This document shows, piece after piece, positions 9,968-20,375 of a DNA stretch of 25,445 bases. Both the position numbers and the translations under genes were made by a program. Position 1 is the stretch's first letter; each line of letters begins with the position of its first letter. Source of the stretch: Phycisphaerae bacterium (GTDB lineage: Bacteria > Planctomycetota > Phycisphaerae > Phycisphaerales > SM1A02); NCBI GenBank assembly GCA_002690755.1, contig NZFT01000019.1, positions 1-25,445 on the forward strand, written 5' to 3'. The notes under the pieces were generated by a model. The model saw only the letters and a list, made by a program, of their open reading frames with translations. It did not search any database and was not told the origin of the DNA.

Positions 9968-11428
9968 ATGGATGCGGCCCGCGACCCCTTTGAAGAACTC
10001 ACCGATCTCTTCCTCAGCGATGATCCCACCCCGGATGCCTCGGAAGGAGACGCCACGTCCGCGACCGTCGCTTCGCCGGCCGAGTCGAAGCTGACCATCG
10101 CGATCTGCGGTCACCTGCCGGTGATGGCGGGGCTCTGGGTCACGCAGTACGCCGACCGGGTCGCGGAGGCGCATGGCTCGACCGGACTCGTTCGGCTGGA
10201 GGGTGGTCGTTGCTCGGTCGAGATCTTCCGATCATCGCGTCGCGTGGAACGGCCCCAGGGAGTCGACCTCGCCACCGCGTCCGGCGTGCTCGCCGAGGGG
10301 ATTCGACGGTGGGTGGTCTGTGTCGACGACCGCGATGCGGCGGAGGCGGTTCGCGCCGGCGCCGATGAAGTCGTCATCCTGACCGCGGCGGAGCGGCCCG
10401 CGGTGATCGAGGCCTACCGCCTCGCGAAGAGCGCGGCCGCGCGGGTCGCGGCCGAGCATCCGCTCGATCTCGGACTGGTCGTGGTCGGTGCCGATGAGGA
10501 TCGCGCCAGCGGCGCGGCGGGCGTGTTGTCCGAAGCCGCGAGTCGTCATCTCGATCGTCCGTTTCCCGTGGTGGCGACGGTTCGCCGGCTCGACGTGGTG
10601 GAGGGATCCCAGCGAATCATGTTCGAGGAGTCGGTCCGGCGAACCGCGCAGGAGGTGGTCACGTCGATTCGGGCTGCGCTCGACGTCGAGGGTTTCGAGT
10701 CACCGGAACCGGTTTCCACGCCAACGCCGTCCGCCGGCGATGCGGCACCCGACGGCGTCGGACTGCGACTCGCCGGTTTCGAGGAGTCGATTGATCACGA
10801 CGATCCACCGAAGACCGTCCGTCCCGCGCCGGTGCGTCGCACGGGGATCGGGATGCAGCCCCTCTTTCCCGGGGAGCCGCCGAAGCGAGCCGGGGTTCGT
10901 CCGGTCCGGCTGGGTCCGGCCCCGACCGGTGAGGCGGGCGTGCCCGCGTTCCGGTCGACCGATGAATCCCCGGCGTCCGAGATCGAGGCGTCGTCCGAAT
11001 CCTCGTTCGAAGACGGGTTCGATGTCGTGGAGGCCGTGCCGGCGGGCGAGGCCGCGGCGACCGGGTCGAGTGAGGCGACGGACTGGTCCCGATGGATCGA
11101 CGGCATTTCGGTCGCGAGATTCCGCTGTCCGATCGCCCCCGAGGTCGAATTCGGCCTCGACGAGGACGGCCGACTGCACCTGCTGTGCGGGCACTCGGCG
11201 ATCGAGTCCATGCGGGTCGCGGAAGCGTGGCTTCGTACGAACCGGGATCTCGTCGCGCTGGCCACCGGCTTCACCGGTGACGTGGTGCTTCACGTCTTCA
11301 CCCGCGATGCACCGGCGGTCGCCGACCTACACCGGACGGGGATTCGCCTCCATCTGCTCGTCGACGAAGGCGAAGACGGCCGCTGCCTGCCGTTGAACAC
11401 CGCATCGAACGCATCGACGCCCGCCTGA
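9968..11428 (+). CDS. MinD/ParA-fold protein without a P-loop, with a separate C-terminal domain
   Basis: A 486-residue protein. Residues 40-240 follow the MinD/FlhG fold: a first strand (KLTIAICGH, 41-49) where a P-loop would be expected, then ADEVVILTAAERPAVIEAYRL (132-152 region) and LDLGLVVVGADED (166-178), both typical of MinD strands. The Walker A lysines and glycines are absent, so ATP binding is doubtful. A long acidic/proline linker (about 240-375) leads to a C-terminal domain (375-470; WSRWIDGISVARFRCP, LHLLCGHSAIESMRVAEAWL) that I do not recognise. The start ATG 9968 has GGAG 8 nt upstream. It lies 70 nt behind the ParA-CBM48 gene on the same strand. A catalytic ATPase next to a degenerate relative suggests the two proteins form a mixed complex. 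Its function is unknown. Confidence 0.7.
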   Translation: MDAARDPFEELTDLFLSDDPTPDASEGDATSATVASPAESKLTIAICGHLPVMAGLWVTQYADRVAEAHGSTGLVRLEGGRCSVEIFRSSRRVERPQGVDLATASGVLAEGIRRWVVCVDDRDAAEAVRAGADEVVILTAAERPAVIEAYRLAKSAAARVAAEHPLDLGLVVVGADEDRASGAAGVLSEAASRHLDRPFPVVATVRRLDVVEGSQRIMFEESVRRTAQEVVTSIRAALDVEGFESPEPVSTPTPSAGDAAPDGVGLRLAGFEESIDHDDPPKTVRPAPVRRTGIGMQPLFPGEPPKRAGVRPVRLGPAPTGEAGVPAFRSTDESPASEIEASSESSFEDGFDVVEAVPAGEAAATGSSEATDWSRWIDGISVARFRCPIAPEVEFGLDEDGRLHLLCGHSAIESMRVAEAWLRTNRDLVALATGFTGDVVLHVFTRDAPAVADLHRTGIRLHLLVDEGEDGRCLPLNTASNASTPA

Positions 11429-11452
11429 TCCGCCGCTGGCCGGCCCCGCCGA

Positions 11453-12379
11453 TCAGCTCGTCGGGAAGAGCAGCTGGATCTGGAATCGAATCGTCCATTC
11501 GCCGACCGCGTCGGGACGGACCGCGTTGTAGAAGCCCTGCAACTGAATGTTCACCGGTTGCGAGCCGAGCCGCATGATGCGTCCGATGCCGCCGCCGAGC
11601 GGGATCGTCCACCGATCGTCCGAACTCGCCTCCCAGTCCGCGGTGAGCACCGGCGAGGTGGTCAGATACCAGCCCTTGTCCATGTTGTAGTTGACGAACG
11701 GCTGGAACAGGAAGGCGTTCACGTCGGCGGCGTCCGAGGGGCCCGCGTACGACCACACGTTCTGGACGAGCCCTCCAACCACCCAGGGGCCGTTCATGGA
11801 GAGCATCACCAGGCTCGGGCCGGCGGTCCACTTGTCGCTGCCCAGTCTCGCGGAGGAGGCGGTCGGGAACTGCAGGACCGGTCCGACGCCCCAGATCAGG
11901 CCGTCGGTCTTCGCCGGCGAGAAGAACCCCGTGAACTGAAGATTGCCGATTCCGAAGTCGCTGGAGATTCCACTGGCCGGCGACGGTGAGTTGACCACCG
12001 GCAGGATCGTGCGGGTGATCAGGTTGATGTCTTCGGTGAGGTTGATCGGGATCACCGGCTGGACGTTGAGCACCCACTGCGCGTTGTCGTTGGGTCCGGT
12101 CGGGAAGGTCAGGTTGTTCTGGAACGGCAGGCTGATCATGTCCGCGACCGGGTTCTGCGAGGCCTTTGCGAGGGCTTCGGTGTTCCCGGCGGTCGGATCG
12201 GCTTCGTATTCGGTGACCACGCCCTCGTCGTCATCACGGGTGCCCGTCGCGGTCGAGGCGGCGGACCCGTCATCCTGCAGCGCCAGGATTCCGGCCGCGA
12301 AGTCGAGCTCGACCGACGTGTCGGCGGCCAGGGGCGTGACGATGATGGAAAGGGCCAGGGTGGTGGTGAGCCGGTTCAT
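11453..12379 (-). CDS. Predicted outer-membrane beta-barrel protein (neuromedin U/transporter-like family)
   Basis: A 308-residue exported protein. The signal peptide is residues 1-19 (MNRLTTTLALSIIVTPLAA). After a short acidic segment comes the family landmark NPVADMISLPFQNN, then alternating amphipathic strands (WVLNVQPVIPINL, DFGIGNLQFTGFFSP, GVGPVLQFPTAS) and a C-terminal strand IRFQIQLLFPTS. This is the pattern of the bacterial proteins annotated as neuromedin U or transporter, taken to be barrels of the outer membrane; cargo is unknown. GAGGAGGT lies 4 nt before the ATG, the strongest ribosome-binding site in the window. The 63-nt gap to the upstream dipeptidase gene is unusually AT-rich (TATTTAATTC on the minus strand), so it may have its own promoter. 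It converges with the MinD-like gene, with 24 nt between the stops. Confidence 0.8.
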   Translation of the reverse strand: MNRLTTTLALSIIVTPLAADTSVELDFAAGILALQDDGSAASTATGTRDDDEGVVTEYEADPTAGNTEALAKASQNPVADMISLPFQNNLTFPTGPNDNAQWVLNVQPVIPINLTEDINLITRTILPVVNSPSPASGISSDFGIGNLQFTGFFSPAKTDGLIWGVGPVLQFPTASSARLGSDKWTAGPSLVMLSMNGPWVVGGLVQNVWSYAGPSDAADVNAFLFQPFVNYNMDKGWYLTTSPVLTADWEASSDDRWTIPLGGGIGRIMRLGSQPVNIQLQGFYNAVRPDAVGEWTIRFQIQLLFPTS

Positions 12380-18456: not shown

Positions 18457-18625
18457 GCCATTCCAGGGTTGCGACCCCCGCTTCATGCGGGGCGGTGGAT
18501 CGGTGGGCGGACTGTGGAGATCATGCGCCCGAAATCGGAAAAATCCATAACTCCATTCCAAACAGAGGTTTGTCATCTTTGCCGAGCGAGTCGTGGGGCA
18601 CTTGGGGGGAAGAAAATCCATGAAA

Positions 18626-18676
18626 TGGGCAAAAGTGGGTGATTGTGTTGAAGAGTGTGGCGATGTGGAGTATTCT
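18626..18676 (+). promoter_or_regulatory. mraZ promoter overlapped by a phased array of MraZ-type boxes
   Basis: Five TG-starting pentamers recur at exact 10-bp steps: TGGGC (18626), TGGGT (18636), TGTTG (18646), TGTGG (18656) and TGGAG (18666). MraZ is known to bind direct GTGG/TGGG repeats spaced 10 bp in front of its own gene. A promoter fits inside the array: TTGAAG (18648-18653), 17 bp, TATTCT (18671-18676), each matching consensus at four of six. Binding would block RNA polymerase directly, which implies autorepression. The surrounding DNA is the most AT-rich part of the window. Confidence 0.75.
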
Positions 18677-18746
18677 CCGGCCGGCATCGTGTGACGGCCT
18701 CGGAAGGTCGACACCTTTCGACTTCGGACCTGCGGAGTACTGATGC

Positions 18747-19217
18747 GTGCTTTTTCTCGGCGAATTCGAGCACACCATCGACACGAAGAATCGGCTGGCC
18801 ATCCCAGCCGAGCTTCGCGACGTGCTCGACGAGGCGACGCACGGATCCGCGTTCGTCGCGGCACCGGGATCGAACGGGACACTCTGGCTCTGGCCGGAGC
18901 GGACCTTCGCGGAACTCGCATCGAAACTCGGCGGCACGCTGCTCGGCGAAGAGGAACTCGTCGCCTTCGATCAGGCGATCTTCTCGCAGTCCGCACGCTG
19001 CACCATCGATTCGGCAGGCCGGGTTCGACTTCCGGAGCGTCTGCTCGGGAAGTTCGGACTGTCCGGGAGCGTGATGGTGCTCGGCGTCCGGGATCATCTC
19101 GAACTCGTTCCGCCCGACGCCTGGCGGGAGAAGCAGGCGGCCCTGCCTTCCGACGGGGACGTCTGGCGACGGGCTCGTGCCGCGCTGGCCGAGCGATCGA
19201 AACGGGAGGACCGATGA
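18747..19217 (+). CDS. mraZ: Transcriptional regulator MraZ (orphan)
   Basis: A 156-residue DNA-binding protein with two SpoVT-AbrB domains. It starts with the family sequence LFLGEFEHTID, and the two DxxxR motifs are DTKNR (12-16) followed by LAIP, and DSAGR (88-92) followed by VRLP. MraZ forms rings that bind repeats upstream of the dcw cluster. The start is GTG 18747, with GGAG 10 nt upstream; ATG 18743 is in another frame. Length is slightly above the usual 143-152. Unusually, no rsmH, ftsL or other dcw gene follows: the next 370 nt hold the GGA-hairpin region and a terminator. A perfect GGGAGG-ACCG-ATG overlaps the mraZ stop (ATGA at 19214), perhaps a relic of a former coupled gene. Confidence 0.93.
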   Translation: MLFLGEFEHTIDTKNRLAIPAELRDVLDEATHGSAFVAAPGSNGTLWLWPERTFAELASKLGGTLLGEEELVAFDQAIFSQSARCTIDSAGRVRLPERLLGKFGLSGSVMVLGVRDHLELVPPDAWREKQAALPSDGDVWRRARAALAERSKREDR

Positions 19218-19246
19218 GGACCTCCGCGAACCCATTCAGAACCAAC

Positions 19247-19626
19247 GGCGGAACTTCCGCCCAGCAGTCATGCGGCCATGGATCGGCCGCCGGACGCATC
19301 GTCGGCACGCGGTCGAGTCGACGATGCGAGCAGTTCGTGTCGCGAGGGTCAAGGATGACCGTCGCGGCTCGTGTTTCGGCCGCAAACGCCTTGTTTTCTC
19401 GGGCATCGCGAACAGGGGGGCACCTGGTTCGCGGACCCCGGGCCAAGGATGGCCCGGATCTGGGTTGCTTCGAGGATCAAGGATGATCCCGGAGCACGTC
19501 GGGGCATCCGCCCCGACCTCCCTCGACCTGCTTGGTCGGTTCGAGGGCTTTCGGCCATGAGCGGGGGCTCGATGGCTGCTTCGCTTCGCCGCCCGCGTCG
19601 TCGACAGACGACGCGGGCGTTTCATT
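19247..19626 (+). ncRNA. Candidate CsrA-sequestering RNA (CsrB/RsmZ-like), or mraZ 3' UTR acting as one
   Basis: No convincing gene fills 19218-19734. On the plus strand it folds into consecutive hairpins, four of which show GGA in the loop. These are GCGGCC-ATGGATC-GGCCGC (19272-19290); CGCGA-G-GGTC-AAGGAT-GACC-G-TCGCG (19341-19366); CCGGGCC-AAGGAT-GGCCCGG (19438-19457); and GGATC-AAGGAT-GATCC (19474-19489). Three loops with their closing pair read CAAGGATG, matching the CARGGAUG core of the CsrA consensus, on stems of different sequence. Other stems lie at 19247-19261, 19498-19517 (8 bp, loop ATCC) and 19521-19548. The 5' end is unknown; the 3' end is the terminator at 19590-19626. csrA lies on the opposite strand, 109 nt beyond. 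The role as a CsrA sponge is inferred from the motif, its repetition and the neighbour. Confidence 0.65.
19590..19626 (+). terminator. Strong intrinsic terminator of the mraZ/GGA-hairpin transcript
   Basis: A perfect 13-bp stem (19590-19602 with 19607-19619) and tetraloop GACA are followed by TTTCATT. The other side of the stem has no T-tract, so it works in the plus direction. It shows that a plus-strand transcript covers the region after mraZ. Confidence 0.9.
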
Positions 19627-19640
19627 GGCTCGCGTCGACC

Positions 19641-19670
19641 TGAAACAAGAAGCCACCGCGATCTGCGGTG
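19641..19670 (-). terminator. Probable intrinsic terminator of csrA
   Basis: On the minus strand CACCGC-AGATC-GCGGTG is followed by GCTTCTTGTTTC. It lies 65 nt after the csrA stop and just before the opposing plus-strand terminator, so the two units are insulated from each other. Confidence 0.6.
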
Positions 19671-19734
19671 TCCTCTTCGGTCGGTCGTTTTCGAATAGCG
19701 CCGGATCTTCGCCGGGGATCGATCGGTGCGAGCG

Positions 19735-19959
19735 TCAGGCTTCGGAGGCAGGACGTATCTGGCCCGCGACGGGTGGCGCTTCCTCATCGGCCACGATCTG
19801 CTCCGCGACTTCACGACGGTGCACCGCGACCTCTCGGGGAAACTCGAAGGCGAGTCGAACCCGGTCGCCCTTGATCACCGCCACCCGGACGACACCAAGA
19901 GGTGACGCGGGATCTCCGATGATGACTTCCTCGCCTTCGCGGCGGGTGATGACGAGCAT
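19735..19959 (-). CDS. csrA: Carbon storage regulator CsrA
   Basis: A 74-residue RNA-binding protein. The family start MLVITRREGEEVIIGD (1-16) carries the RNA-contact residues at positions 4-7, and FPREVAVHRREV has the conserved VAVHR with its RNA-binding arginine. An insertion-like GDPASPLGVVRV makes the first turn a little longer than in E. coli CsrA (61 residues), and about a dozen residues are added at the C-terminus. CsrA binds GGA in hairpin loops and blocks or stabilises mRNAs. ATG 19959 is preceded by AGGAGG; an upstream in-frame ATG at 20061 is rejected because it lacks a ribosome-binding site and adds no family sequence. The convergent RNA at 19247-19626 carries its likely binding sites. 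No fliW is seen nearby. Confidence 0.95.
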   Translation of the reverse strand: MLVITRREGEEVIIGDPASPLGVVRVAVIKGDRVRLAFEFPREVAVHRREVAEQIVADEEAPPVAGQIRPASEA

Positions 19960-19962
19960 GAT

Positions 19963-19978
19963 CAGGGCCTCCTGCCTG
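19963..19978 (-). promoter_or_regulatory. csrA ribosome-binding site in a GGA-loop hairpin (autoregulation candidate)
   Basis: On the minus strand CAGG-CAGGAGGC-CCTG places the whole AGGAGG Shine-Dalgarno in an 8-nt loop, 3 nt before the ATG. A GGA in a loop that is also the ribosome-binding site is the arrangement CsrA uses to repress translation. The stem is only 4 bp, so the structure is modest. Confidence 0.45.
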
Positions 19979-20047
19979 CGAACCACCCTCGGAGGGGTTC
20001 GACCGGGACGTCGGTGTCTCGGCCGGAGAGGGGTGGTCGCCGAGATC

Positions 20048-20074
20048 GTTCGGCTCCACACAGCCTAGCCGAAC
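20048..20074 (-). other. 8-bp inverted repeat upstream of csrA
   Basis: GTTCGGCT/AGCCGAAC form a perfect stem around an 11-nt loop, 89-115 nt before the csrA start and downstream of the NifU-like gene. No T-tract follows in either direction, so it is not a clear intrinsic terminator. It could be part of the csrA leader or an operator. Confidence 0.3.
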
Positions 20075-20099
20075 CACGCGGATTGCAGAAGTCGGTATC

Positions 20100-20119
20100 G
20101 GTGGATTTCATCATCCACC
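20100..20119 (-). terminator. Weak terminator candidate after the NifU-like gene
   Basis: GGTGGAT-GATGAA-ATCCACC on the minus strand, a 7-bp perfect stem, starts 7 nt after the stop codon. The tail is not T-rich, so termination may be weak or Rho-dependent. Confidence 0.35.
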
Positions 20120-20126
20120 AGCGGCA

Positions 20127-20375
20127 TCACTCGGCGGCGATGACGTTCGTCACCTCGGGGACCATGCTGCGCAGATTCCGCGCAATACCTTCACGAAGCG
20201 TCATTTCGCTCGACGGACAACCGATGCAGGCTCCGAGAAAGCGGATCATGACGACCCCCTCCTCGGAGATTTCGAGGAGCTCGAAGTCGCCGCCATCCTC
20301 CTGCACCGCCGGCCGGATGCGGTCGAGGACCGCCTCGACTCGAGACTGTAGGGATTCGGATGGTGAATCGGTCAT
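20127..20375 (-). CDS. NifU C-terminal-type Fe-S cluster scaffold protein
   Basis: An 82-residue protein that is just the NifU/NfuA C-terminal domain. The helix VLDRIRPAVQEDGGDFELLEI and the cluster motif GACIGCPSSEMTL give the two ligand cysteines C50 and C53; a dimer would hold one 4Fe-4S cluster for transfer to client proteins. Length is typical of single-domain Nfu proteins. ATG 20375 has AAGGA about 10 nt upstream. It is upstream of csrA on the same strand with a 167-nt gap. It is divergent from the lipoprotein gene at 20545. No suf or isc genes are seen in the window. Confidence 0.93.
   Translation of the reverse strand: MTDSPSESLQSRVEAVLDRIRPAVQEDGGDFELLEISEEGVVMIRFLGACIGCPSSEMTLREGIARNLRSMVPEVTNVIAAE

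Follow-up and report, generated by a model that had tools for sequence, protein, structure and literature searches.

A predicted CsrA-sponge-like RNA downstream of mraZ in planctomycetes of the order Phycisphaerales

The small RNAs RsmX, RsmY and RsmZ as well as CsrB and CsrC carry multiple GGA hairpins and titrate CsrA or RsmA; the planctomycete locus described here likewise has multiple GGA hairpins, and titration of CsrA is what we propose for it. To our knowledge, none of these RNAs has a tie to mraZ. The CsrA site has been given as ANGGAN (PMC7652899), and the hexaloop CANGGANG has been named for CsrA/RsmE (PMC4894983). RsmW of Pseudomonas aeruginosa is an RsmA-binding RNA with GGA loops that originates from the 3'-UTR of a small upstream gene, with no terminator in between (PMC4950607); it differs from our candidate in that it comes from another phylum and its upstream gene is not mraZ. 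RsmU of Xanthomonas also sequesters RsmA, is processed from an mRNA 3'-UTR and is absent from Rfam, but it belongs to the mRNA of a comEA-like gene and is reported to be limited to one genus (PMC7694677), whereas the linkage to mraZ described below extends over a family and, in weaker form, over a class. In Campylobacter jejuni the leader of the flaA mRNA, which has adjacent GGA hexaloops, titrates CsrA together with FliW (PMC4894983). This leader is the nearest precedent for an RNA and FliW acting in one cell; it is, however, a 5' leader, itself a CsrA target with two sites, whereas here a terminated region after mraZ carries four. GGA-rich Csr sRNAs were also predicted by machine learning in the fliW-bearing genome of Geobacter sulfurreducens (PMC5568370, PMC11934962). 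UpsM of Rhodobacter sphaeroides is an sRNA from the dcw/mraZ transcript and likewise mraZ-linked, but it derives from the 5' leader (PMC5089854), and a term count in the accessible text of that paper returned no mention of CsrA. The TwoAYGGAY motif, tabled for human gut, Gammaproteobacteria and Clostridiales (PMC2864571), was considered as an identity for our region and set aside, with no Rfam match and other taxa listed.

A 2015 study proposed BarA-UvrY-driven sRNA antagonists of CsrA as a gammaproteobacterial feature; it described BarA-UvrY and FliW as strongly anti-correlated and suggested that other groups including Planctomycetes may use FliW (PMC4682653). The gene fliW is absent from Gammaproteobacteria (PMC7652899). 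Judged by title and the start of the abstract, none of the open-access papers among the matches listed described any Csr sponge from Planctomycetota, from Phycisphaerae or with a tie to mraZ, and the accessible parts of four papers that name these groups (PMC9029176, PMC10729762, PMC11607428, PMC12316311) report no such RNA.

We analysed 25,445 nt of contig NZFT01000019.1 from a Phycisphaerae bacterium (assembly GCA_002690755.1; Planctomycetota, Phycisphaerales, SM1A02), a stretch that at its full length is called the window below. The original prediction for this DNA was a CsrB/RsmZ-like CsrA sponge RNA beside csrA. Its structural elements were all recovered, namely four hairpins with A(A/T)GGAT loops on differing stems, a 13-bp perfect terminator and csrA as convergent neighbour (Table 1). 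It had not mentioned mraZ directly upstream, nor that the genome has another csrA at a different place, next to fliW. The mraZ product matched the NCBIfam MraZ equivalog models at scores under their cut-offs. Upstream of this gene lies the pair TGGG-N6-TGGG, which we take to be MraZ-box-like; the window holds three matches to this pair, with 0.71 expected by chance. The tail of the terminator is a modest U tract. A promoter scan of positions 18500-20200, covering the sigma-70 type only, found no sigma-70-like promoter.

Table 1. Features at the mraZ-csrA1 locus of the window (contig NZFT01000019.1).
Feature	Position	Strand	Evidence or remark
MraZ-box-like pair TGGG-N6-TGGG	18626..18639	+	5' of mraZ
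mraZ, division/cell-wall cluster transcriptional regulator, 156 aa	18747..19217	+	PF02381, 73.2 bits
Proposed CsrA-binding (sponge) RNA region	19218..19626	+	fold, genus alignment, covariation
Small hairpin directly 3' of the mraZ stop	19247..19261	+	fold and alignment; sister species has a hairpin of different sequence in the same place
CsrA-site hairpin 1 (putative), GCGGCC-ATGGATC-GGCCGC, 6-bp stem	19272..19290	+	
Spacer hairpin without GGA loop	19295..19328	+	two-sided changes in 3/11 pairs
CsrA-site hairpin 2 (putative), core GGTC-AAGGAT-GACC within longer stem	19339..19368	+	
GC-rich hairpin CGCGAAC/GTTCGCG, no ANGGA loop	19407..19433	+	nearly invariant in genus
CsrA-site hairpin 3 (putative), CCGGGCC-AAGGAT-GGCCCGG	19438..19457	+	
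CsrA-site hairpin 4 (putative), core GGATC-AAGGAT-GATCC	19466..19496	+	
Intrinsic terminator, 13-bp perfect stem 19590-19619, TTTCATT tail	19590..19626	+	
csrA1, divergent CsrA paralogue, 74 aa	19735..19959	-	PF02599, 52.1 bits; convergent to RNA

The four A(T/A)GGAT loops lie within positions 19272-19496, and three of them are CANGGANG hexaloops on unrelated stems. Because the stems within one molecule are unrelated, the hairpins do not form a repeat family. In the output of the folding program three of the loops are AGGA tetraloops with a closing A-U pair; the GGA is unpaired either way. The sequence CAAGGATG occurred four times in the 25-kb window, three times within this stretch, with 0.43 occurrences expected. 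Folding of the 380-nt stretch was far more stable than expected (z = -6.4), as was that of hairpins 2, 3 and 4 (z = -5.1, -3.6 and -4.1, respectively) and of the terminator (z = -6.0), while hairpin 1 alone was not unusual (z = -1.4). The GC-rich hairpin at 19407-19433 exposes the loop region AGGGGGGCACCT, which is not an ANGGA site. In the own genome (722,632 bp scanned on both strands, window included) three ANGGA hairpins per 250 nt were found clustered at just one further place. This second cluster, on the minus strand (L246, 17653-17752, contig C5 of genome G000), has weak stems.

The likeness to CsrB and RsmZ held for the multiple GGA hairpins and, in the case of CsrB, did not extend to detail. 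No sponge family, CsrB, CsrC and RsmX/Y/Z included, reached threshold in Rfam searches of the window at gathering and relaxed thresholds and of six relatives at gathering threshold; only a tRNA elsewhere reached a threshold. The best sub-threshold match, and the sole resemblance to a sponge, was RsmW (RF02809) with 27.8 bits against a gathering threshold of 52 (E 0.0088). The hairpin scanner that found four sites here found none of the seven and five ANGGA motifs of Escherichia coli CsrB and CsrC in a hairpin. With this positive control failing, the scanner must be regarded as detecting only the longer-stem hexaloop type, and the architecture of the region described here differs from that of CsrB and CsrC.

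Conservation of the GGA loops in relatives, the absence of which the original prediction had named as refuting it, was found in the genus as well as the family. We searched 61 genomes, the own genome included, at the DNA level and obtained long matches in six of the seven other genomes of the same genus, with 77-94% identity; the seventh (G003) is uninformative, as its contig ends 116 nt past csrA. Beyond the genus there were no long matches among the 61 genomes, and short matches in five. In the alignment of the seven genus sequences the loops keep ANGGA(T/C) and the stems vary. Six named helices were paired in 99.8% of 420 cells. Changes on both sides of a pair were seen in 22 cells, compared to 8.4 in shuffles, with none of 500 shuffles reaching 22, and this covariation signal vanished when pairing partners were slid. 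Further pair types, one of five covariation measures, were not above shuffles (18 versus 22). Since the genus sequences fall into two clades, these counts rest on few independent changes. Two-sided changes were distributed over hairpin 1 (2/6 pairs), hairpin 3 (2/7), hairpin 4 (1/12) and the terminator (2/12), while hairpin 2 showed one-sided changes only in its 12 pairs, with one broken cell. Indels not divisible by three in the alignment argue against a reading frame. A 38-base block (19557-19594) that runs into the terminator stem and contains no ANGGA hairpin was invariant in all seven genus members.

Similar hairpins were found throughout the family. Among 80 named csrA1 loci, several of them cut short by contig ends, clusters of at least three hairpins per 250 nt faced csrA convergently at 37 and stood in tandem on its upstream side at 16, giving 53/80 in total, with none on either of two control strands (0/80 each). 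A search for mraZ at 132 loci gave 101 with mraZ, 100 of them with 400 nt after the gene, and 61 after removal of near-duplicates. On the sense strand after mraZ, every one of the 100 loci had one or more hairpins; two or more were present in 96, and three or more in a cluster in 78. The opposite strand never had two. The 61 non-redundant loci together showed 192 ANGGA hairpins in sense and 5 in antisense orientation, compared to a mean of 10.1 and a maximum of 20 in 100 dinucleotide shuffles, and at least three sites were present in 45 of them (median site spacing 48 nt). Of 342 ANGGA occurrences, 192 were located in the loop of a hairpin, compared to 0-20% for 14 control pentamers. The hairpins used 162 distinct stem arms and had the flank consensus C-A-N-G-G-A-Y-G, with C preceding in 174 of the 192, G following in 152 and the loop ending in a pyrimidine in 162; the scan favours G-C pairs, but neither their orientation nor C on the 5' side. 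Under a strict definition (CANGGANG hairpins) there were 148 sense and no antisense cases in 27,450 bases after mraZ, while the own genome held 31 in 1,445,264 bases of strand, which corresponds to an approximately 250-fold excess per kilobase over this background. At least one strict hairpin was present in 60 of the 61 loci and at least three in 30, with one locus having none. A terminator followed within 260 nt of the last hairpin in 36 of the 61 loci and was not found by the same rule in 25. The loops and covarying stems in the genus, together with the strand-specific CANGGANG hairpins in the family, strongly support the central prediction of a CsrA-sponge-like RNA in a planctomycete.

The constant neighbour of the hairpins is mraZ, not csrA. 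In the order's other sampled families mraZ is separated from csrA, and there were still 23 strict hairpins sense and none antisense after mraZ in 20 loci (present in 5/6 loci of f2, 1/1 of f3, 3/5 of f5, 3/4 of f6 and 0/4 of f4). One locus of f6 (L168) carries five strict CANGGANG hairpins after mraZ, with csrA elsewhere in the genome. The predicted placement beside csrA thus held within the family (f1) and not as a constant association, and we dropped csrA adjacency as a defining feature of the RNA because families f2-f6 keep hairpins after a distant mraZ. In class members outside the order, 22 strict hairpins were sense and none antisense, with 15 of 27 loci having them, while 27 loci from outside the class had none on either strand. 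The loci of these class and phylum samples were not drawn at random but taken as the top-scoring MraZ matches from 81 and 79 genomes, respectively; 27 loci were left in each once three members of the order and one locus lacking post-mraZ sequence had been excluded. A looser hairpin rule gave 10 sense and 3 antisense hairpins in 28 loci of the phylum set, partly in reading frames. Putative CsrA-site hairpins linked to mraZ are thus found so far only in this class. Their presence after mraZ in the order families and the class indicates that the sites go with mraZ and that csrA1 adjacency is a feature of the family. One exception was genome G036, in which mraZ is on a different contig from csrA1 and its hairpins. 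In three members of other families of the class (L190, L197, L206), where rsmH (PF01795) comes after mraZ, hairpins occupy the interval between these two genes or are found in the vicinity of small reading frames, so the sites may have begun as cis elements.

Based on these genomic patterns we consider it likely that the region encodes a CsrA-titrating RNA of a new family, for which transcription, CsrA binding and titration are predicted. This RNA is probably the 3' end of the mraZ transcript. The first hairpin started at or before the mraZ stop in 9 of the 61 loci, in seven of which it spans the stop codon and in two of which it lies inside mraZ, and a terminator between mraZ and the first hairpin was found in only one (absent in 60/61, as in sponges derived from mRNA 3' ends); both observations favour one transcript with mraZ. 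In 45 of the 61 loci the 250 nt upstream of mraZ contained a MraZ-box-like pair, and on the other strand such a pair was present in none. Positions 19218-19626 would be transcribed from the plus strand as the end of this message, perhaps then processed, and the RNA would end at the terminator stem. The four ANGGA hairpins would serve as high-affinity sites by which the RNA may bind one or two CsrA dimers and draw CsrA off mRNAs by titration, in the manner of gammaproteobacterial RsmX/Y/Z, RsmW and CsrB. An RNA of this kind would present three to four sites to CsrA dimers. Should it indeed belong to the mraZ message, its abundance would vary with the transcription of that gene.

An alternative, which we regard as possible without favouring it, is an independent sponge gene whose own promoter would lie within or just after mraZ; this would be compatible with the core claim of a CsrA-titrating RNA. 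RsmY and RsmZ are independently transcribed (PMC4950607), and the median of 69 nt from the mraZ stop to the first hairpin in the 61 loci would leave room for a promoter. The sigma-70 scan, however, gave no candidate at this locus, and first hairpins that reach into mraZ do not fit well with a separate gene.

Which CsrA protein the RNA might serve is a further question, as the same genome encodes two. The original prediction had expected FliW-type control in this group, and on another contig we found fliW, csrA2 and a flagellin gene in a row. At this second locus (contig C30 of G000, approximately 10761-12074, L069) ANGGA hairpins occur upstream of fliW and just before csrA2, which suggests CsrA control of both genes. 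The csrA1 product of the window carries a CsrA domain that includes the N-terminal RNA-binding strand, has a four-residue insertion relative to E. coli-type CsrA and matched a CsrA homologue in the PDB with 41 bits. Against the NCBIfam CsrA equivalog (cut-off 73 bits) CsrA1 scored 53.1 bits, under the cut-off, and the canonical CsrA2 91.5 bits, over it. All 53 type-1 CsrA proteins had R at the place of R44, as placed by motif. Asparagine at the FliW contact position N55, placed by distance from R44, was found in none of the 53 CsrA1 proteins and in all 17 CsrA2 proteins fetched. N55 is needed for FliW antagonism of CsrA (PMC11934962), and by its sequence CsrA1 of the window does not show the mark of a FliW-controlled CsrA, N55 with the C-terminal motif after it.

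Genome content also bears on this division. Among 35 family genomes with a csrA1 locus, 32 had at least two hairpins on one side, 26 of these together with fliW; the other three were G003, with its contig end, and G019 and G030, whose loci are long enough and showed a single hairpin each. Four genomes (G008, G012, G024, G034; 93-96% complete) kept csrA1 and the hairpins, and no fliW, second csrA or flagellin was found in them. These four are probably non-flagellate, and the same search found flagellin in all eight fliW-bearing family genomes. Two more genomes without fliW and second csrA (G002 and G004, 88% and 68% complete) were excluded from this loss argument. The likely main client of the RNA would be CsrA1, encoded next to it and without the residue for FliW contact, and FliW would serve CsrA2 at the flagellar locus. 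We think it rather unlikely, although compatible with the core claim, that the sponge mainly serves the FliW-linked CsrA2, or both CsrAs equally, with FliW and RNA acting on one protein. CsrA2 is the better match to the CsrA model, and family f5 has only CsrA2-like proteins and yet keeps some sites after mraZ, which argues against a strict pairing of CsrA1 with the sponge. Against CsrA2 as the main client stand the four genomes that kept csrA1 and hairpins without it, and the adjacency of the hairpins to csrA1 in f1.

Less probable still is a purely cis-acting element, in which CsrA would bind the 3' end of the mraZ mRNA for stability or processing, with no titration in trans. The linkage of the hairpins to mraZ across family and order, the seven first hairpins that span the mraZ stop, the single intervening terminator in 61 loci and the sites between mraZ and rsmH in three class members would all fit such an element. 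At least three sites in 45/61 loci and 162 distinct stem arms, however, seem to go beyond the needs of a cis switch, and the linkage to csrA1 in f1, in two gene orders, would be left unexplained by cis control of mraZ. We give very little weight to an action of the RNA on csrA itself, be it antisense to its 3' end or as a leader: csrA1 does converge on it here, and other genomes have csrA1 in tandem on its downstream side, but in the window and in tandem loci such as L023 and L060 the RNA would stop at a terminator short of csrA1, and the hairpins stay with mraZ, away from csrA, in order families f2-f6. It is hardly credible that the hairpins arose by chance or belong to some generic structured or repetitive element, for instance a group of terminators or a mobile hairpin repeat. 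In this GC-rich genome hairpins do form readily, and the scanner, which misses E. coli CsrB and CsrC, cannot count as a validated detector of sponges, but this reading is already contradicted by the 148-to-0 strand asymmetry, the shuffles, the control pentamers and the background of the own genome.

Returning to the CsrA-titrating RNA that we prefer, we propose tentatively, and with somewhat less than even confidence, that in Phycisphaerales the transcript of an autoregulated mraZ has a second function as a CsrA sponge, through which a cell-division regulator would set the amount of free CsrA, and that CsrA1 is under control of the RNA and CsrA2 under that of FliW. As 26 of the 35 family genomes combine fliW with two or more ANGGA hairpins next to csrA1, the question of side-by-side control is directly testable. 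Titration of CsrA by RNA may have evolved on several occasions, and here it would be tied to a cell-division gene. If this is true, an RNA-sponge arm and a FliW arm of CsrA control would be operating in one cell.
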